Below, one piece after another: positions 2,020 to 38,042 of a stretch of DNA of 64,000 bases. How positions within the stretch are numbered: the first letter of the stretch is position 1; each line of letters starts with the position of its first letter. The DNA is taken from positions 1 through 64,000 of the forward strand of contig JAQBSZ010000020.1 of the NCBI GenBank assembly GCA_027623555.1, written 5' to 3'. Both the position numbers and the translations under genes were made by a program. This stretch comes from Pseudomonadota bacterium. GTDB taxonomy: Bacteria; Pseudomonadota; Gammaproteobacteria; Pseudomonadales; Pseudohongiellaceae. The notes beneath the pieces are model-generated. The model was not told the origin of the DNA and ran no database searches. It saw only the letters and a program-made list of their open reading frames with translations.

Positions 2020-2110
2020 TATTATTCTCCTGTTGTCTGACCCTTCTATTTATTAATTAGAGAAAGGGGCTCAGAGTAAAAAGACAGTTGTTCTCGCAAT
2101 AGTAATTTAA

Positions 2111-5242: not shown

Positions 5243-5348
5243 TTCGACGTGTCTAAGAAGATTCAATATTTCGACATAGGCGGAAGATAGGTCGACGGCA
5301 TCGACATGTTAAGGAGTTATGTCGATAAAGCTTTGAAAAATCGACATG
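5243..5348. promoter_or_regulatory. Iterated TCGACAT operator cluster upstream of fic
   Basis: Six matches to TCGACAT or its complement sit in about 105 bases just before the fic start: near 5243 (TTCGACGTG), 5270, 5291, 5300, 5319 (inverted, TATGTCGAT) and 5340. This density is far above chance and fits multiple operators for the gene's own winged-helix domain. Confidence 0.55.
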
Positions 5349-5355
5349 CGTAACA

Positions 5356-5418
5356 GGGGGTCAGGTCTCCATCTGAAACTCACAACGTAAACTGTGTGCA
5401 ATTGGAGACCTGACCCCC
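5356..5418. repeat. Family B hairpin (B2)
   Basis: Arms GGGGGTCAGGTCTCCA and TGGAGACCTGACCCCC enclose an inner segment with CTCACAACGTAAACTG. It is the closest to a complete consensus of this family, together with B3. From 5420 to 5748 (about 330 bases) I see no credible gene. Confidence 0.85.
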
Positions 5419-5748
5419 GCATCCGAGGAATCAAGGGGTAAGAGTAGATTGATTTTTCAATAGGTTTGAAGTGCGATCCAAATATTCTGCCTCCTTGATT
5501 CTCATTCCAGGTCATGGGTACCGGAGATGTTCACTGCAGATGCTTGTAGTGGCTCGAGACCATGTCCCCAATCCTTTTCTTTGCATAACCTTTCTAGCGT
5601 TCGCCGCGTCTAAACCAATAAGCGGTTCCAAATTAGATCAATCAATTTGTTCTCGTAGAACAGTGTTACTAATGAGAGAAAACTGTATTGTTTACTAAGT
5701 CGTTAGATAGTCAGGAAGGTGTAAACAGGCAATGGTGATGGCCACAAC

Positions 5749-8175
5749 ATGATCTCAGGTAGCATAAGGCGCTTCCTGCGTATTTTCTCAGCTGAGAAAC
5801 ACTATTCATTCCTGAATATCGTCGGTCTGTCTTTGGGTATGGCCTGCTCGATTTTGCTCGCCCTCTATCTGGAGCATGAACTCACTTTTGATCGACATAA
5901 CACGGCACATCAGAATATTTATCGGGTCAATCATCAAATTGATGCAACCAACAATGTAACCCTGCAAGCTCAGACCTCTCACTTCCTGGGGCCGCTGCTG
6001 ATCCGGGATTATCCACAAATCGAAAGCTATGTGAGCTTTCGTCCGGAAAGCCCCAATGCAACGCTGTTGAAGTACCAGAACCAATCCTATTATGTCGATG
6101 ATCTGTTTATCGCAGACAACAGTGTGTTTGACATCTTCACCCATGAAATTGTTTACGGTGAGCCGAGTCAGGCTCTGCTTAGACCCAACACCATTGCCAT
6201 AAACCGCTCGCTCGCCGAGCGCCTGTTTAGCGGTGAAAACCCGGTGGGGCGCACAGTCACCACCGGGGTGGTGGACTACCAGGTAACCCTGGTGTTCGGC
6301 GATCTGCCGGACAACTCCCATTTCAAATACAGTGCATTGATTGCCAATGCCGGAAATTTCGCGCCCAGCGCCGACGCGCTGGCCAATCGGCGCGGAAATT
6401 TGTGGAACTTAAATGGTTACACGTATGTGCGCATGAATCCGGCTACGCAAGTGGATGGCAGTGAAGTTTTTGTCGACTTCTACACTCGCATGATGGCTGA
6501 TGTCACCCGCCCTGGTTATACCGCACAGTTCTTTCTCGAACCCCTGGCAGATATACATCTGAGCTCGGTGGCTCTTCAGGATTTCCCGCGTGGCAATACC
6601 TACTATCTTTATGCGCTGTCGGTTGTTGCTGTGCTGGTGCTCATCAGCGCTTGCTTTAATTACATCAATCTTGCAACGGCAAGGGCGTTCGGTCGTAGCA
6701 AAGAGATCGCGATCCGCAAGATCCTCGGCGCCGACAGAAAGATATTGATCACGCAATTCATTGCGGAGTCCATGCTCTATGCGTTCATTGCCTTGTTCGT
6801 TGCTGTGATGTTGGTCAAATTGGTGCTGGCCGGGTCGGCAGATATCAATTTGTTCGGCAGGGATTTCGATCCAGGGTTTTGGCGTGATCCCTGGGCCTTG
6901 GTTGCACTGCTGGTTTTAGGTTTAGCGGTGGGCGCGATGGCAGGCATTTAGCCTGCGTTCTATCTCAGTCGAATGGGCGATTCCGCTAAGGCAAAAGTAA
7001 CCGGCGCCGGCGTTGGTAACAAGGTACGTGGTGGGCTGGTGTTAGCGCAATTCACAATCTCCATTACGGTCATCACTGCCACCCTGCTCATGTTCAACCA
7101 ACTGAGCTATATGGATGGCCTGGCCGTAGGCCTTGAAAAGGAGAACAAAGTGTTGGTCAGAGTGCAGGGCGCCGACGCCATCGAGCGCATCCCGGCGTTG
7201 CAGCAGGAATTACGCGCCAGCCCCTATATCGATGAGGTGTCCCTTGGCGTTGGCAATCCTGTAACCGGAAGCTATGTCGCCGCGTTAGAGGCGCAACTGG
7301 AAGACGGTTCAGTGTATAACCTTGAATACAGCTACACTCAGGGAGATGAGACTTATATCGATACCCTCGGGTTACAACTAAGCGCCGGTCGCGGATTTGA
7401 AACCGGTCAGGAATCCGAGTTGAGACAGGTTGTCATTAATCAGGCGGCCACGGAAGAGATTGGTTGGGATGATCCCATCGGCAAAGTTTTCACCGTCGGT
7501 GGATCACCGGAATACGTGGTCATTGGCGAAGTGCAGGATTTTCGTTTCCAGGACATACATAGCCGTATTAAACCTTTCATCCTCTATTATGACCTCCTCG
7601 ATTTTGAAGACTGGTCGGAAGACCGCAGAGTTGCGGCCGTGCGTGAATTGATTGTGGATATCAATGACGACACGGTACCGCAAGCCCTCGCGCTATTGGA
7701 AGAGAGCTGGTCAGCGTTCGATCCGGTTTATCCTTTGCAATATGAATTTCTGGATGACGTCATGGAACGATTGCGCGTATCCGATAATCGGCAGATGAAC
7801 CTGATTGCCCTGTTTGCTGTGATCTGTATTTTTATTTCCTGTCTCGGGCTGTTCGGGCTCACCGCGTTTACAACTCAGCGCAAGACCAAGGAAATCGGTA
7901 TTCGGAAAATTCTCGGCGCCTCTACCGGGCAGATAATCAATCTGTTATTTGCCAATATTTTGAAACTGCTGTTGCTGTCTTCAATCATCGCATCCGTGGT
8001 TGCCTATATGGCGATCAGTGGATGGCTGGAGGGATTTTACTATCGGCAGGCAATCGATCCGATCGCGTTTATCAGCGCGTCATTGATGGCGATTGCGGTT
8101 GCGTTTATCACGTTGACACTGCAGTCCTACCGGACGGCTTCACGGAATCCGGTGGTGGCATTGAGATATGAGTAA
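5749..8175 (+). pseudogene. ABC transporter permease (MacB/FtsX type) split by one amber codon
   Basis: One frame runs through the whole span and encodes an 808-residue permease, except for a TAG at 6949-6951. Upstream is ...GAMAGI and directly downstream PAFYLSR; relatives read AGxYPAFYLSR there, so the TAG most simply replaces a tyrosine codon. The layout is that of MacB/FtsX-type permeases: an N-terminal transmembrane helix (about 20-40), a periplasmic domain, three helices near 285-400 with the EIAIRKILGA coupling motif, then a second copy ending with three helices and EIGIRKILGAS. No ATP-binding subunit is adjacent. It could be a pseudogene, a strain-specific mutation, or rescued by a suppressor tRNA. 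Confidence 0.8.
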
Positions 8176-8222
8176 AGGGGTCAGCGTAAAAATGCAGTAG
8201 TGTATTTTTTACTCTGACCCTA
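8174..8222. repeat. Family D hairpin (D1)
   Basis: GGGGTCAGCGTAAAAATGCA pairs with TGTATTTTTTACTCTGACCC. It begins at the permease stop codon and may act as a terminator. Related arms lie near 2067, 25667, 28281 and 37983. Confidence 0.75.
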
Positions 8223-8313
8223 TTTTTTGAGTGTGTGAAGTTTTCTGTGTAAAGCTACGGTTAAATGTAACCGGCCAGGCGTTCTTCGAACTCAAACATA
8301 AATCTACCTGTCT

Positions 8314-9572: not shown

Positions 9573-9654
9573 GAGAACGCAGAAAACGTGGTTTGTCCTC
9601 GTTTTTCCCTGTCTGAAACCTGCTTGATCAGGCCATTGGCGGCATTTAGAGCTA

Positions 9655-9711
9655 CTTAGCGACATATAAACAGGCTTAGCGACAAAAAAATCACCAAAAT
9701 GTCGCTAAGAG
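9655..9711. promoter_or_regulatory. TTAGCGACA operator-like repeats without an obvious gene
   Basis: Two direct copies of CTTAGCGACA (near 9655 and 9675) and an inverted copy TGTCGCTAAG (near 9701) lie in 55 bases. No gene starts next to them: the ORF6N gene ends at 9776 and the fic gene starts at 9487, both on the minus strand. They look like the operator of a lost HTH or Fic gene. Confidence 0.4.
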
Positions 9712-9720
9712 TAGCGAATT

Positions 9721-9770
9721 AGGGGACAGGCCACGTTTTAGCGAAATCAAAAAACGTGGTCTGTGCCCTA
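9721..9770. repeat. Family C hairpin (C1)
   Basis: AGGGGACAGGCCACGTTTT pairs with AAAACGTGGTCTGTGCCCT around a short loop. A lone right arm of the same family (AAAACGTGGTTTGTCC) occurs at 9583-9598, so the two may be ends of a decayed unit. It lies just after the ORF6N stop and could act as a terminator. Confidence 0.8.
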
Positions 9771-15210: not shown

Positions 15211-15308
15211 TCACCTCTGGAGAATCAACCAAGGTTTGTACGGGGCCCAATACTGGAGAGACTCAGTGAGTTATGGAAATTCGGGTCAGACCACGATGTA
15301 AGATAACA

Positions 15309-15369
15309 GGGGGTCAGGTCTCCATCTGAAACTCACAACGTAATCTGTGTGCAAGTGGATACCTGACCC
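15309..15369. repeat. Family B hairpin (B3)
   Basis: GGGGGTCAGGTCTCCATCTG with inner CTCACAACGTAATCTG and a right arm GTGGATACCTGACCC. With B4 at 16567 it brackets the next gene. Confidence 0.85.
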
Positions 15370-15413
15370 GGTAGGTTTCTGCTTCGATCCTGACCCATTG
15401 ATTTTTGTTTGCA

Positions 15414-16433: not shown

Positions 16434-16566
16434 TGGCTATATCCTTGGTTTTGTCCGTCGGTGAGTTTCGGGACAGTGGCTACAATTGAGTTAAAGTTAC
16501 CGGAAATCAAAGGGGTCTGCCTATAAATAAATATCTGCCTGATCTAACTCTGTTTTTGCGTAATAG

Positions 16567-16627
16567 GAGGCCAGGTCTGCATCTGAAACTCACACCGTAA
16601 ACTGTATGCAATCGGAGACCTGACCCC
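16567..16627. repeat. Family B hairpin (B4)
   Basis: GGAGGCCAGGTCTGCATCTG and ATCGGAGACCTGACCCC; the most diverged full copy of the family in the window. Confidence 0.78.
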
Positions 16628-16677
16628 TGCATCGAAGGGCCTTCTCTTTGGTTTGCCAAGCGCTAATCAAGGCTTGA

Positions 16678-25500: not shown

Positions 25501-25580
25501 ATAGGGACAGGCCACGTTGTCCCGCGGTTAATTCTGTCCCTGGCTACCACGTTTGGAAAACGCGATCTGTCCACGGTTAT
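25501..25580. repeat. Family C hairpin debris (C6)
   Basis: AGGGACAGGCCACGTTGTCC, an inner ATTCTGTCCCTGG, and CCACGTTTGGAAAACGCGAT with CTGTCCACGG. It appears to be a composite of more than one C-type arm. Confidence 0.55.
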
Positions 25581-25600: not shown

Positions 25601-25669
25601 TTTGATGAAGTTGAAGAATTGGCAGGCAGACGGGTACGCCCAATGAAACGAGGTCGACCGCCAGCATAA
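25601..25669 (+). pseudogene. RAYT transposase, 3'-terminal remnant 1
   Basis: The frame reads FDEVEELAGRRVRPMKRGRP then PA and TAA. This is the hallmark C-terminus of REP-associated tyrosine transposases, which end ...EIEALTGRRV...RGRP. No catalytic HuH or tyrosine domain is upstream. A D-type hairpin arm (AGTACTGTATTTTTACGCTC, then ACCCC) follows the stop directly. Confidence 0.65.
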
Positions 25670-25720
25670 AGTACTGTATTTTTACGCTCACCCCATTTAT
25701 TTCTGCCAGAGAACAACCGG

Positions 25721-27916
25721 ATGGCTGTTTATTCTAGTTTTCTGCTCCGAATCTTTCAGAAAAATTCGTGTTTATTCAGCCTACTCGCGGCGCTGGGATT
25801 TGCCGTCGCTCCCAACTACTCCCTTGCTCAGGACGCGCTGCCTGCAACCGACCAGGGCTCTACTGTCACCTACCCTGCCAGTTACTTCGCCAAATTTGAG
25901 CCCTTCGCTGTAAGCGACTTGCTGGACCGCATTCCCGGTATCAATGTTGCACGTGATGGGGGTCAGGGCGGCGGTGGCGGCCCGGGTAGTTCACAGAGCT
26001 CCGATCGTCGCGGGTTGGGCGCGGGGGGAGACCAGGTACTGATCAATGGTCGGCGTATCGCAGGTAAGGAAAATGAAGGCAACGATCAGCTCAGCCGTAT
26101 CCCCGCCTCTCAAGTTGAATATATCCAAATAATACGGGGCACCTCCGGTGATCTCGACGTACGTGGTGGTGGCCAGGTCATCAATATCGTGATGCTGGAG
26201 GCAGAATCCAGCTCGACCAGTACCTACGAGCTCAACGCAGATCGTTCGTGGGACGGCACTTATACACCCGGGGCCAAGTTATCTTTGACCGGCCAGCGAG
26301 GTGCTCTTGATTATTCTGTAAGCGGTGAGCGTGAGCCGCAATACCAATTAAACAGAAGCCGCGAACACAGTGTATTTTCTGACGGTTCGCCAAATGAACG
26401 GCTGAAAAAAGAAACCACACAGGATTCCACGCCGTTAACCCTGGTCGGTAATTTTGGTTATGAATTTTCACAACAGGATCGGGCACATCTAAATCTGCAG
26501 TGGGCTGAAGACAACCAGGACACCGAGCTGGAGCGTCTTATCGTGGATGATAAGTTTGAGAATCCCGTGCTAAGCCAGCAGTTCGAAGCTTTGCCGTTTG
26601 ACAGTGAAACCTGGGAAATCGGTGGCGATTACGAGCATATTTTCTCGGACGGCAGTCGCTTCAAGACACTCTTTATAGTCAACGAAAAAGATGATCTGTT
26701 CGTTCGCGAGCGCTATGACGGCGACAGCTCCGATCGTACCAAGACTCTTTTCCTATCGTCATCGGAACGCACCAGGGAACGTATAGTAAGAACCTCCTAC
26801 ACTTTTGACGTCTTCGCAACACAGTCACTGGAAGTCGGTGTCGAGCGCGCCCAGACACTATTGGATACTTCCCTGCAACTCGGCCTATTAACCGGGGGAG
26901 AGAGTTCAGATCGATTTGGCGGTCTGTCACCAGTGACCGATGCAAACGGTACTGTAGAGGAAATGCGATATGAGTATTTCGCCGTGCACAATTGGCAACT
27001 CAATAATCGCATGTCACTGGAAAGTACGCTGCTTTTCGAAGACAGCACTATCAAGCAGAGTGGAGATACTTCCCAGTCTCGCGACTTCGATTTCGTGCGT
27101 CCAAAGATAGACTACCGCTTTGATATCACCCCAAGCCTGCAGTTTCGAACGACTATCGAAAAAGACGTGTCACAGCTGAGTTTTGGGGATTTCACAACCA
27201 GTGCTGAGACCAATCGTGGTAGCGATGACGATCTGAACCAACTGGAAGGCAACCCGAACCTGGTCCAGGAAAAATCCTGGCGCTACGATGCCAACCTGGA
27301 ATACCGTCTGCCCAATGATAGCGGCGTAATCAGTGCCAATCTGTTCTATCACGAACTGGAAGATGTACTAGAGAAAATCGATGTTTCAACCGAGGAAGTT
27401 GTCCAGTCCGCTAACGGCAACATCGGCGACGGTGAACGCTATGGGCTCAAGATCGATAGCAGCTTGAGACTGGGATTCCTGGATCAACCCAACATGTTAG
27501 TGACAACAGGTCTCGAGCTTGAAGATTCCGAAGTCACCGATCCCTTCACTGGCATGAAGAGGCGGCTGTCGCGCCGGGGCAGGGGAGAGTTCAATATCGG
27601 GCTCCGTCACGATATCCCGTCACGCAATATGAACTGGGGTTTTAACATTAACACGCGTTTCGACGGAGGCAATGTTACTTACGACATCAACAAGACTGAG
27701 GAGTACGAAGGCAGCTCTTCTTATTTCAGCTGGGTCGAGATGCAGGGTTGGGGGGGATTGACTTATCGATTCGAAGCCAGCGACCAATTCGTTCGCTGTA
27801 GGCCCAGAGACCGATTCGAGAATCGTACGGTTGGCGATGGCGGGCTACGGGAACTGGAAAAGGCCTGTTGGGATACCGGGGTAGTGTTGGCATTGAAAGT
27901 GCGTGGTACCTTTTGA
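25721..27916 (+). CDS. TonB-dependent outer-membrane receptor
   Basis: A 731-residue protein with a signal peptide (LAALGFAVAPNYSLAQ). A plug domain (about 50-165) contains VSDLLDRIPGINVARDGGQG, LINGRRIAGKENEGNDQL and the IPASQVEYIQIIRG segment typical of TonB receptors. The rest is a beta-barrel with alternating strands, and the last residue is phenylalanine (KVRGTF), as expected for BAM-dependent insertion. A glycine-rich stretch (GGQGGGGGPGSSQSS) interrupts the plug. The ligand is unknown. The gene lies between two directly oriented RAYT gene tails. TonB itself is encoded at 35656. Confidence 0.85.
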   Translation: MAVYSSFLLRIFQKNSCLFSLLAALGFAVAPNYSLAQDALPATDQGSTVTYPASYFAKFEPFAVSDLLDRIPGINVARDGGQGGGGGPGSSQSSDRRGLGAGGDQVLINGRRIAGKENEGNDQLSRIPASQVEYIQIIRGTSGDLDVRGGGQVINIVMLEAESSSTSTYELNADRSWDGTYTPGAKLSLTGQRGALDYSVSGEREPQYQLNRSREHSVFSDGSPNERLKKETTQDSTPLTLVGNFGYEFSQQDRAHLNLQWAEDNQDTELERLIVDDKFENPVLSQQFEALPFDSETWEIGGDYEHIFSDGSRFKTLFIVNEKDDLFVRERYDGDSSDRTKTLFLSSSERTRERIVRTSYTFDVFATQSLEVGVERAQTLLDTSLQLGLLTGGESSDRFGGLSPVTDANGTVEEMRYEYFAVHNWQLNNRMSLESTLLFEDSTIKQSGDTSQSRDFDFVRPKIDYRFDITPSLQFRTTIEKDVSQLSFGDFTTSAETNRGSDDDLNQLEGNPNLVQEKSWRYDANLEYRLPNDSGVISANLFYHELEDVLEKIDVSTEEVVQSANGNIGDGERYGLKIDSSLRLGFLDQPNMLVTTGLELEDSEVTDPFTGMKRRLSRRGRGEFNIGLRHDIPSRNMNWGFNINTRFDGGNVTYDINKTEEYEGSSSYFSWVEMQGWGGLTYRFEASDQFVRCRPRDRFENRTVGDGGLRELEKACWDTGVVLALKVRGTF

Positions 27917-27968
27917 GCTGACAGGTAAGCGGGTACGTCCGATGAAACGTGTTCAACCGCCAGGATAA
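27915..27968 (+). pseudogene. RAYT transposase, 3'-terminal remnant 2
   Basis: ELTGKRVRPMKRVQPPG then TAA, overlapping the end of the receptor gene by two bases. It is very similar to remnant 1, including the PF(x)nELxGxRVRPMKR order. Only the tail is present. Confidence 0.6.
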
Positions 27969-27991
27969 GCTACCGGAAACTAAAAAGAGGC

Positions 27992-28282
27992 GGAGGCTGA
28001 GATATCCCCACAAATTTTTGCCCATACTTGGACTAGCTTTTTTGCATCTATCACTGGAATATCCCCGTCACCGCGGGCGAAGAGCCGACTTCTAGGGGCC
28101 GGCGGCCGAGGGCTGGGATATTATTTGCTCACGGACCTTCGGCCCTGATTGTTCGCAAACAACACCCCCCCTGGCTCGAGTAGTTGAAATTCAACGCTTC
28201 CTACATCTTCCAAGCCTGCAGAAATCGCTCAAAACAAGCTAACCCAATGCGTTAATTCGACATTTGCTGGGGATATCTCAGG
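27992..28282. repeat. Family G element, copy 1
   Basis: Bounded by CTGAGATATCCCCA (from 27996) and TGGGGATATCTCAG (to about 28282). It holds a core (28108-28163) that is a near-perfect inverted match to copy 2 at 61998-62205, shared stretch GCTCACGGACCTTCGGCCCT. The core itself folds as a long hairpin in copy 2 (AGGGCTGGGAT and ATCCCAGCCCT). No gene was found in it. Confidence 0.7.
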
Positions 28283-28304
28283 GTCAAAGTAAATATAAAG
28301 TAGT

Positions 28305-28577
28305 TTAGGGTGATGAGCGCTCACGTTTCAGTGACCGCACACGCCTGTCTGTCAACTCTTCAATCTCTGCTTTGAAACGTTCGGTTCCCGGCACCAGCCC
28401 CTTGTTCAACGCGTAGCGAACATCGGGTAGTCATTTCTCGACAACGTGAGACTGGAACAGTGCTGGGCAGTTTTCCAGGCGCTCCAACTTTGTGTGCCTC
28501 AATGGTAGATACAGAGGATGAGGCGCACGTTTCTTCGATTCAACTACCGGTCCATTGGCCCGATAGCTTGATCAGCC
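28305..28577 (-). pseudogene. RAYT transposase, C-terminal third, degraded (remnant 3)
   Basis: In one minus-strand frame I read SSYRANG, then KRAPHPLYLPLR, ALFQSHVVEK, a TGA, LPDVRYALNKGLVPGTERF and KAEIEELTDRRV before TAA at 28305. SSYRANG, HPLY, ALFxxH, NKGL.xG.ERF and E-x-L-T-x-R-R-V are signature segments of REP-associated tyrosine transposases. The Y1 catalytic domain is missing and the frame carries a stop, so it is dead. Downstream of the stop is a D-type arm (TTTATATTTACTTTGACCCT). Confidence 0.75.
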
Positions 28578-28823
28578 ATAGTCCGCCGGGCATGAAATGG
28601 TGAAATGTGGTGAAATGGGGACAGACCACGTTTTCCAAAGGTAAGCCGGGACAGAGCTATTTTTGCTGGTTGTCGGCGCAGGATTTGGGCCACGTCCAGG
28701 CAGATTGCACAACGCCCGCATCAGGGCTTGGCCTGCAAGGCCCGGAAACGCGCGGGTTGTAGCGGCCGGTAGGCTACTGCATAATCGGGGAAAATATATA
28801 GTTCCTACTCAGGAGAGTTCCAG
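28578..28823. other. Gene-free stretch with a family C arm
   Basis: Contains a short ATGAAATGGTGAAATGTGGT direct repeat, a single C arm (GGGGACAGACCACGTTTTCC, from 28617) with GGGACAGAG after it, and the leader of the next gene. I see no gene. Confidence 0.5.
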
Positions 28824-30761: not shown

Positions 30762-30772
30762 ATAAATAAATA

Positions 30773-30842
30773 AAGGGGACGGAGGGAGTAAATTTTAACC
30801 AGTCACGAAGCTGGTTAAAATTTACTCCCTCCGTCCCCTTTA
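30773..30842. repeat. Family E hairpin (E2)
   Basis: AAAGGGGACGGAGGGAGTAA and TTACTCCCTCCGTCCCCTTT form perfect arms that continue inward through ATTTTAACCAG and CTGGTTAAAAT. It is the most regular hairpin in the window and a likely terminator for the PQQ gene. Confidence 0.92.
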
Positions 30843-30872: not shown

Positions 30873-31376
30873 ATGAATAAGCGAGAGATGGCTGGGATCG
30901 TGATCGCAGCGGTGCTACTGGTCGGAGTGCTGAGCTGGATGTTCACGGCACCGTACCTGGGAAACGAAGGGCTTGCTCGTACGCCCGGCGTAATTATTGG
31001 AGGAACACCTACTCCGGCTCCAGCTGACTTCACGCCGCTCTATGAGAACGTTCGGGGTCCTTTGCTCATGAAGCAAAGCGGATTCCCGCCTTTTGTTACC
31101 TATCTGTCCTGGGTGGGCACTCCTGAGGGCGTAATCACCGCCACCCACCCGGACGGCGCATTATGGGCGCAGCGCGTGAGGGACCGCGGTGGTGATGGCT
31201 GGCTGCGGATTGGCGAAGCGACTTTTACGATGGAGGCCTTCGAAATTTTCGGAGACGAGCGCATCGCCATGATGCAGCAGTGGGCCGCCATGGTGGGCAT
31301 AACGCTAGATGATTCACTCTACGCAGGGTCAGCACCGCTCCGCGACTTTGAAGTCTTTTTCTGGAAGCCTAGATAA
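30873..31376 (+). CDS. Membrane-anchored protein of unknown function
   Basis: 167 residues. An N-terminal anchor (MAGIVIAAVLLVGVLSWMF) is followed by a proline-rich linker (GGTPTPAPADFTPL) and a soluble domain with LMKQSGFPPFVTYLSWVG, TATHPDGALWAQRVRDRGGD and AFEIFGDERIAMMQQWAAMV. I do not recognise the family. AAGGACAAG before the ATG is a good ribosome site. It sits alone between hairpins E2 and B5. Confidence 0.65.
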   Translation: MNKREMAGIVIAAVLLVGVLSWMFTAPYLGNEGLARTPGVIIGGTPTPAPADFTPLYENVRGPLLMKQSGFPPFVTYLSWVGTPEGVITATHPDGALWAQRVRDRGGDGWLRIGEATFTMEAFEIFGDERIAMMQQWAAMVGITLDDSLYAGSAPLRDFEVFFWKPR

Positions 31377-31386
31377 TTAGTAATTA

Positions 31387-31446
31387 GGGTCAGGTCTCCA
31401 TCTGCAACTTATTGTGCCTTCTGTGTGCAATGGGAGACCTGACCCC
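31387..31446. repeat. Family B hairpin (B5)
   Basis: GGGTCAGGTCTCCATCTGC and TGGGAGACCTGACCCCC. With B6 it brackets the next small gene. Confidence 0.85.
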
Positions 31447-31461
31447 CAAAGAGGTATCAAA

Positions 31462-35077: not shown

Positions 35078-35307
35078 GGCTTTCTCCTGAGGCGGTCAGG
35101 GTTGATTTCAGGAATTGAGATTTGAGGACGGCATCCCGATGACCAGTCTAAGTGCCCCAGGTGGCGCCGACAATACGCCAAAAGGCGTATACAGAATAGT
35201 TGGATTAGCCATGATTAAAAGGTTACAAGCAGGGTCGCGACGGGTGAAAAACGGAGACAGACCACGATTTAGGCTAATCCTGAACTCAGTAAGTGAAGCA
35301 ACTGTAA

Positions 35308-35368
35308 GGGTCAGGTCTCCATCTGCAGCCTATTATGCCTTGTGTGTGCAATTGGAGACCTGACCCCC
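35308..35368. repeat. Family B hairpin (B8)
   Basis: GGGTCAGGTCTCCATCTGC and ATTGGAGACCTGACCCCC. A partial C arm (GAGACAGACCACGATTTAGG) lies just before at 35253. The 578-base gap 35078-35655 otherwise has only a doubtful small frame. Confidence 0.85.
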
Positions 35369-35427
35369 AACTACTTAATCCATTGATTAATGTCAAATTT
35401 GGCCGCCTGTTGTTGTGCTTTCATGGT

Positions 35428-37982: not shown

Positions 37983-38042
37983 AGTCTCCAGGTAGATGGC
38001 ATCAGAGTAAATATACAATACTGCATTTTTGCGCTAATCCCA
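37983..38042. repeat. Family D hairpin (D3)
   Basis: ATCAGAGTAAATATACAAT and ACTGCATTTTTGCGCTAATC. It lies directly upstream of the lipoprotein start. Confidence 0.55.

Follow-up and report, generated by a model that had tools for sequence, protein, structure and literature searches.

Three remnants of transposase genes, here called R1, R2 and R3, lie in the stretch of DNA analysed (the window, the first 64,000 nucleotides of contig JAQBSZ010000020.1, our contig C93) from a gammaproteobacterium of the Pseudohongiellaceae, assembly GCA_027623555.1. They are assigned to the RAYT group (REP-associated tyrosine transposases, REP standing for repetitive extragenic palindrome), and with a probability of about 0.82 we read them as fossils of one TIRtron family, in which a short Y1 (HUH) gene carries inverted copies of one arm at both ends. 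That arm is of the D type, and the data support the D family as the flanking repeat of these dead RAYT-type (Y1) genes. An earlier note on this DNA, made from its letters, had proposed dead RAYTs that moved REP-like hairpins.

Gene Remnants and D-Type Arms in the Window

The remnants and the D-type arms are the following.

25604-25669, plus strand: R1, C-terminal remnant of a RAYT/TIRYT gene; reads DEVEELAGRRVRPMKRGRPPA, then a stop codon
27915-27968, plus strand: R2, C-terminal RAYT remnant, directly 3' of a TonB-dependent receptor gene; reads ELTGKRVRPMKRVQPPG, then a stop codon
28598-28305, minus strand: R3, remnant of a RAYT/TIRYT gene covering its C-terminal 40% and containing internal stops; ends in ALNKGLVPGTERFKAEIEELTDRRVRSLKRERSSP, then a stop codon
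25667-25694, plus strand: D-type 3' arm overlapping the R1 stop codon; 23/28
28280-28307, minus strand: D-type 3' arm overlapping the R3 stop codon; 24/28, outermost bases replaced by the end of a miniature inverted-repeat transposable element (MITE)
27966-27977, plus strand: possible rest of a D-type arm, 12 nt, at the R2 stop codon; weak, 9 of 500 shuffles being as good
8174-8224, plus strand: free D-type hairpin, two D-like arms face to face; 24/28 at 8177-8204
37998-38041, no strand assigned: degenerate D-type hairpin; 21/28 and 20/28
2067-2094, minus strand: single degenerate D-type arm; 21/28

A profile built from 153 stop-free RAYT-family proteins, including those that lack the HUH histidines (HUH-less), was compared with all six frames of the window. 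R3 matched with an E value of 1.3e-17 over profile positions 131-226 of 232, and again in the profile search of its own genome (E 4.4e-16, with two TGA codons inside the matched stretch); on this match its assignment as a RAYT C-terminus is certain. The same scan gave R1 an E value of 1.6 and did not report R2, because both are too short to score. At the DNA level the last 54 bases of R1 are identical to R2 at 42 positions and to R3 at 36; none of the other places listed for the 64 kb has more than 28. With this similarity and its D arm R1 is nearly certainly a RAYT remnant, and R2, judged by its similarity to R1, is probably one, so that the three C-termini described in the earlier note are borne out. 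R1 and R2 also stand as direct repeats on both sides of the TonB-dependent receptor gene at 25721-27916 (Pfam Plug and OMP_b-brl_3).

The D arm, TAAACTACTGGATATTTACTCTGACCCC, was taken from the stop codon onward in three related genes (loci L024, L033, and L035). The best score across 20 shuffled windows was 19/28; neither R3 nor the D arms at the R1 and R3 stop codons can reasonably be put down to chance, and the earlier note had placed these arms correctly. The window holds several hairpin families, and D is the only arm type found at the stop codons of these remnants. Across the whole genome we counted 19 D-type sites with up to three mismatches, 4 of them in the window, versus none for the reversed pattern.

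Unbroken Relatives of the D Type

Unbroken D-type RAYT genes flanked on both sides by this arm were found in two species of the same genus (L024 in genome G035 and L033 in G008), and a further D-type gene (L035 in G013) is interrupted by one TGA. These genes end in GRRVRPARRKRKSA; the stop codon TAA opens the 3' arm TAAACTACTGGATATTTACTCTGACCCC and the 5' arm is its inverse. The search that the earlier note had proposed, for matching hairpins on both flanks of intact Y1 genes, was in this way answered at L024 and L033, and its expectation of active copies elsewhere holds as far as unbroken genes in G035 and G008 are concerned. In the window's own genome it was not borne out: a profile search of this assembly, which is 97.5% complete, found no unbroken D-type gene, and the D family therefore looks orphaned there. 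Nor can the tail GRRVRPxKRGRP serve as the mark of intact transposases as suggested, because HUH-less proteins end in close variants of it.

The own genome does hold two stop-free short Y1 RAYT genes with arm types of their own, GGGGACGGAGGGATTAAATTTTAACCA and ATCAAAGGGGTCAGAGTACTTTGAT; a MITE end interrupts the 3' arm of the GGGGACGGAGGGATTAAATTTTAACCA-type gene close to the end of its contig. It also holds a longer RAYT of 283 aa with GGGGTCAGGTCTCC arms (L003, on G000:C21; gene L003:1465-2316), at which the GGTCTCC arm pair is present and the flanking complement described below is not evident on reading.

A Shared Core at the Element Ends

The ends were compared over 180 genes with complete flanks, a set that includes repeat fetches (for example L001/L006, L002/L007/L062, and L003/L008); the non-redundant sets comprise 178 distinct arms, 88 distinct 5' arms, and 86 distinct stop-free proteins. 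A motif-free search found an inverted pair across the gene that beat 40 shuffles in 113 of the 180. The anchor motif GGG[ATC]C[AG]G was derived from that search and then used in all core-anchored analyses, where 99 of the 180 genes had a pair identical at 22 or more of 35 bases (swapped flanks: mean 9.1, maximum 14). In most elements the 3' arm starts at or shortly past the stop codon, and the outer edge of its CCC lies at a median of 21 nt past that codon (99 elements). Identity between the two ends, measured in 83 elements, lies between 0.63 and 1.00 at positions -6 to +17 around the core; beyond these limits it is at most 0.53 on the outer side and 0.29-0.48 on the inner side (+18 to +28). 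The best-shared part of the ends measures about 24 nt and consists of the core GGGGWCRGA with a short family-specific segment on either side. The motif GGGGWSAS is found on both flanks as inverted repeats, and the core consensus is slightly wider than this motif because the 178 arms include 23 with A for the first of the four G, 18 with C at position 3, and 18 with G at position 5.

Of 182 arms, 41 are preceded upstream by a partial tandem copy of their outer part (0.6 in shuffles), and one such copy is seen in the 3' flank of L002. The endpoints of these copies range from 2 to 25, with 21 of the 41 at core positions 4-8; since this is a tendency only, the idea that they mark a single cleavage point serves as no more than a lead.

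Complementary Segments around the Core

Across families, positions -2 to -5 tend to be complementary to positions +12 to +15. In the 178 distinct arms register 4 gave a mean of 3.58 pairs of 7 versus 2.56 when permuted (z 11.9), with z of 5.9 and 4.4 in registers 3 and 5, -4.6 in register 7, and at most 2.5 in the others; the 88 distinct 5' arms alone gave z 8.6. The result was replicated on further genes. A search matching 65 of 369 genomes returned 30 loci, 28 of them flank-complete and 21 with an arm pair; after removal of two already seen, 19 of 26 further genes had a pair, and their 37 arms gave z 5.6 (0 of 1000 permutations as high).

Arm Type and Transposase Clade

Protein distance and arm distance are correlated over the 86 distinct stop-free proteins (r 0.43, 0 of 2000 permutations as high, permuted maximum 0.14), and in tree order the arms fall into blocks of ACCACG (A-type), GGCCAGGCTC, ATCAA/TTGAT, and GGAGGGATT types. 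This shows that gene and arm share linked descent, from which we infer that a transposase recognises its arm. The Y1 transposase would most likely bind the arm as single-stranded DNA and contact the GGGGWCRGA core, and the flanking complement may either fold into a short stem or act as a guide paired with its target, in the manner of IS200/IS605. The endpoints of the partial copies would fit cleavage near the core, and slippage too. The free D hairpins of the window would be non-autonomous derivatives, mobilised in trans at a time when a D-type gene was still alive. Of the earlier proposal that the D hairpins were moved by the now-dead RAYTs, the association stands, since the D arm flanks these genes and the pairing is clade-specific; the movement itself is a reading of that linkage.

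Weighing the Readings

Several observations weigh against reading the remnants and their arms as one TIRtron family with recognised ends. R2 was identified from DNA similarity alone and R1 from DNA similarity and its arm. As many as 81 of the 180 genes are without such an arm pair, part of them from the HUH-less clade. On the inner side the drop in identity is not sharp, 0.29-0.48 versus 0.25-0.32 expected from +18 to +28, mostly above expectation probably because some families have longer arms. The complementarity fades when the arms are thinned to dissimilar ones, from z 6.6 with 66 representatives and 4.6 with 51 to 2.0 with 31 (17 of 500 permutations as high) and 1.3 with 24 (74 of 500). 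It is poor in the D family itself: among the six arms from L024, L033, and L035, three give three to four pairs in register 3 and the other three give one, and in these loci one element carries different outer bases at its two ends. The stem is also weak alone, with a DNA fold energy of median -0.8 and mean -1.43 versus -0.84 kcal/mol for swapped halves. Finally, arm and gene may be linked through common descent with no recognition involved, and no transposition event was seen.

One could argue, since the protein profile on its own supports neither R1 nor R2, that both resemble a RAYT tail by chance and that R3 is the sole real fossil; the identities of 42/54 and 36/54 against a background of 28, and a D arm sitting exactly at the stop codon of R1, make this very improbable, and for R1 it is already disfavoured. 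It is just as improbable that we are dealing with an ordinary REPtron, in which classical GTAG-headed REPs and their RAYT have decayed beyond recognition. The proteins do belong to the same superfamily (PF01797; NF047646 below its cut-off) and inverted repeats do flank the gene, but hairpins with a GT[AG]G head are not above chance in the 180 flank sets, stop-free genes included (2 versus 3.0 in shuffles, none on both flanks), and a conserved GGGG core is found instead. Classical REPs around these genes were rejected on this count, and the earlier description of the hairpins as REP-like gives way to GGGGWSAS inverted repeats. Several free hairpins are long near-perfect palindromes, as would be expected if they were selected RNA hairpins such as intergenic terminators and not mobile relatives of the gene. 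We nevertheless consider this improbable, since the same arm sequences flank transposase genes and vary with the transposase clade, and since 19 D sites stand against none in the control.

The complement could be a guide-target pair as in IS200/IS605, in which the outer 4-5 nt are target DNA paired with the inner 4-5 nt and cleavage takes place in or beside the GGGGWC core. The pairing of 4-5 nt in one register, weak as a fold, would agree with this, as would the lower conservation between ends of the outer side than of its inner partner in every pair from -2/+12 to -6/+16 (for example 0.72 at -5 versus 0.89 at +15), the unlike outer bases at the two ends in the D family, and the excess of upstream partial copies, about half of which end at core positions 4-8. 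On the other hand, over all elements the two ends mostly agree in their outer bases (0.82-0.89 from -2 to -4), which therefore usually travel with the element, and the spread of the partial-copy endpoints could be due to replication slippage. On balance the guide-target explanation is a doubtful one, though it deserves to be kept in mind. Unlikely, too, in our judgement is a modular recognition code, in which a near-constant GGGGWCRGA core would serve all transposases of the clade and a family-specific complementary pair of 4-6 nt would set specificity. If such a code were true, a few bases would suffice to predict, and perhaps to alter, the repeat or target of a transposase, as is the case for the guide sequences of IS608.

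Other Hairpin Families of the Window

Besides the D type, the window holds the following arms and hairpins; no strand is assigned unless given.

30771-30842: two GGGGACGGAGGG arms forming a palindrome; the unbroken GGGGACGGAGGGATTAAATTTTAACCA-type RAYT on own-genome contig C64 has this arm type
25503-25543: GGGACAG arms a short way upstream of R1, including an A-like one (AGGGACAGGCCACG)
28617-28633, plus strand: A-type arm (GGGGACAGACCACGTTT) beside the truncated N-side of R3
9584-9768, 19857, 20075, 22853, 28617, and 35253: A-type arms
5347-5428, 15300-15381, 16557-16638, 31376-31457, and 35297-35378: families of the L003 arm type (GGGGTCAGGTCTCC)

The own genome has 27 A-type sites versus none in the control. 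They are clustered, 8 of the 27 lying in the window, which makes up 1.4% of the assembly. At least four hairpin families of the window (the D, A, GGTCTCC, and GGACGGAGG types) can in this way be tied to arms beside RAYT genes.

An IS4-Family Element That Prefers the Core

The MITE end that replaces the outermost bases of the R3 arm belongs to an element with ends CTGAGATATCCCC, of which 47 end matches were found in the own genome. A copy of 1,332 bp (L221:1499-2830) carries an IS4-family transposase broken into two pieces, both with matches to NF033591 that stay under its cut-off and one matching DDE_Tnp_1 as well; the derived MITEs measure 231-371 bp. In the window the element is seen at the following places.

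27997-28281, plus strand: 285-bp MITE (ends CTGAGATATCCCC) adjoining the core of the R3 arm, with unequal flanks AGGCGGAGG and GGTCAAAGT
62005: further IS4/MITE end in a GGGGACGGAGG arm

Recombination between two MITE copies could explain the unequal flanks at 27997-28281. Flanks in the own genome were collected from the loci of 30 of the 47 end matches, the window, and L001; among these 38 flanking 9-mers, 22 match GGWCRGA at 7/7 and 30 at 6/7 or better (0.07% and 0.77% of random 9-mers). Eleven two-ended copies are listed, five with an exact 9-bp duplication, three with duplications differing at one or two bases, and three with unequal flanks. The five exact duplications comprise three core-like targets (such as GGTCAGAGT) and two non-core ones (ACGCAGACT and ACTTCGACA). 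Six sister genomes had end matches; loci were obtained for 21 of their 33 matches and gave 20 flanks, which come from five of the six. The preference is weaker there, with 8 of the 20 flanks matching at 6/7 or better (background 0.65%). The IS4-family element prefers the core sequence and does not require the arm. Absolute targeting was ruled out by the 8/20 of the sister flanks (30/38 in the own genome) and by the two non-core exact duplications.

HUH-Less Homologues beside Type VI Secretion Genes

One group of RAYT homologues lacks both HUH histidines and keeps the tyrosine, with for example LLPNxIQIIATP in place of LMTNHVHLLVTP.

L271:8995-9759 (L165) and L272:8052-8795 (L166): HUH-less genes
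L022, L027, L158, L159, L162, L163, L164, and L176: further HUH-less loci beside neighbours of the type VI secretion system (T6SS) type

The second histidine is replaced by Gln in 10 of 11 aligned HUH-less proteins, the exception being L009 of the own genome. Ten aligned HUH-less proteins form one clade with a support of 0.97; L164 was omitted from this tree by the length limit, and L004/L010, one own-genome gene of the longer class that has lost the first histidine, was excluded from the clade. Apart from L009, 10 of 11 HUH-less proteins share a neighbour from the family that was identified as PP2C phosphatase at locus L164 or as Hcp at L166; L177 is HUH-less and has neither a PP2C- nor an Hcp-family neighbour. 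The genes for PP2C, VipB, FHA, TssJ, TssK, and DotU follow or surround the HUH-less gene in L271, as do those for Hcp, a ClpB-type AAA protein, and TssF in L272. T6SS genes were named by Pfam in these two loci and assigned in the other eight through the homology of one neighbour. A catalytically dead transposase thus seems to have been domesticated in T6SS loci; no title on a HUH-less RAYT in type VI secretion loci appeared among the literature matches listed. L009 (G000:C13:79301-79909) is a strongly diverged HUH-less homologue outside the T6SS clade, with no Pfam or NCBIfam match at 0.001.

Comparison with Known Systems

Among nine transposase proteins scanned, eight match PF01797 above its cut-off, the same eight reach 45-79 bits with NF047646 (REP-associated tyrosine transposase, cut-off 80 bits, none above 80), and L009 matches neither; NF033573 matches three of the nine at 20-25 bits with a cut-off of 55. 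In the alignment the catalytic tyrosine is present in all 144 HUH proteins, which hold both histidines by sorting, and in 11 HUH-less ones. The window remnants, which are C-terminal only, cannot display this Y1 signature.

The closest known system is that of the TIRYTs and TIRtrons, described by Di Nocera et al. (2013; PMC3733652) as RAYT-like genes with long terminal inverted repeats (TIRs), some with GGGGWSAS, solo and dimeric repeat copies, and self-complementary tracts in some TIRs. In the portion at hand they leave cleavage or movement of the repeats by the transposase to future assays. The likeness lies in a RAYT-like gene, GGGGWSAS inverted repeats in place of GTAG REPs, and solo or dimeric copies elsewhere, which in the own genome are the 19 D-type and 27 A-type sites. 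Quentin et al. (2018; PMC6006769) place 20 of 26 TIRYTs in subclass 2.1, with helix-turn-helix (HTH) type domains, and in the part available report no REP-like sequences for that subclass. In contrast to it, the proteins scanned here show Y1_Tnp alone, with no C-terminal HTH-like domain at E up to 0.001 in the short proteins or in L003, and unlike TIRYTs they are mostly short, about 214-250 aa among the rows listed. By sequence and arrangement the present elements fit TIRtrons with GGGG-core inverted repeats. The single-register complement, the clade-specific arm types, and the IS4 core targeting were not seen in the TIRtron literature at hand or in the search listings, which is no proof that they are unpublished; a literature search with the literal sequence GGGGACAGA gave, among the matches listed, titles that looked unrelated.

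REPtrons, in which a RAYT (TnpAREP) is associated with REPs, resemble these elements in the tie between transposase and repeat family, the inverted repeats on both flanks, and the coevolution of gene and repeat, as far as the excerpts of PMC2817692, PMC6006769, and PMC8266576 show. They differ in that the arms here have no GT[AG]G head and carry their conserved part in the middle of the arm, not at a 5' foot. The IS200/IS605 elements share the Y1 HUH transposase, and short base-paired segments direct cleavage there (PMC8266576, in part); here, unlike there, the arm at one end is an inverted copy of that at the other. Insertion sequences with REPs as their targets are also known, among them the IS4-family ISRm22, which inserts into a repeated extragenic palindrome (PMC1525189, in part), whereas the present element, which has MITE derivatives, is directed at the GGWCRGA core in the arms of TIRtrons. 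So far loosely defined, TIRtrons would gain from this comparison a shared anatomy in Gammaproteobacteria and some neighbours, consisting of the core, the one-register complement, and the clade-specific arms. The question of what their transposases recognise therefore becomes directly testable, and the same core is the preferred landing site of another insertion sequence.

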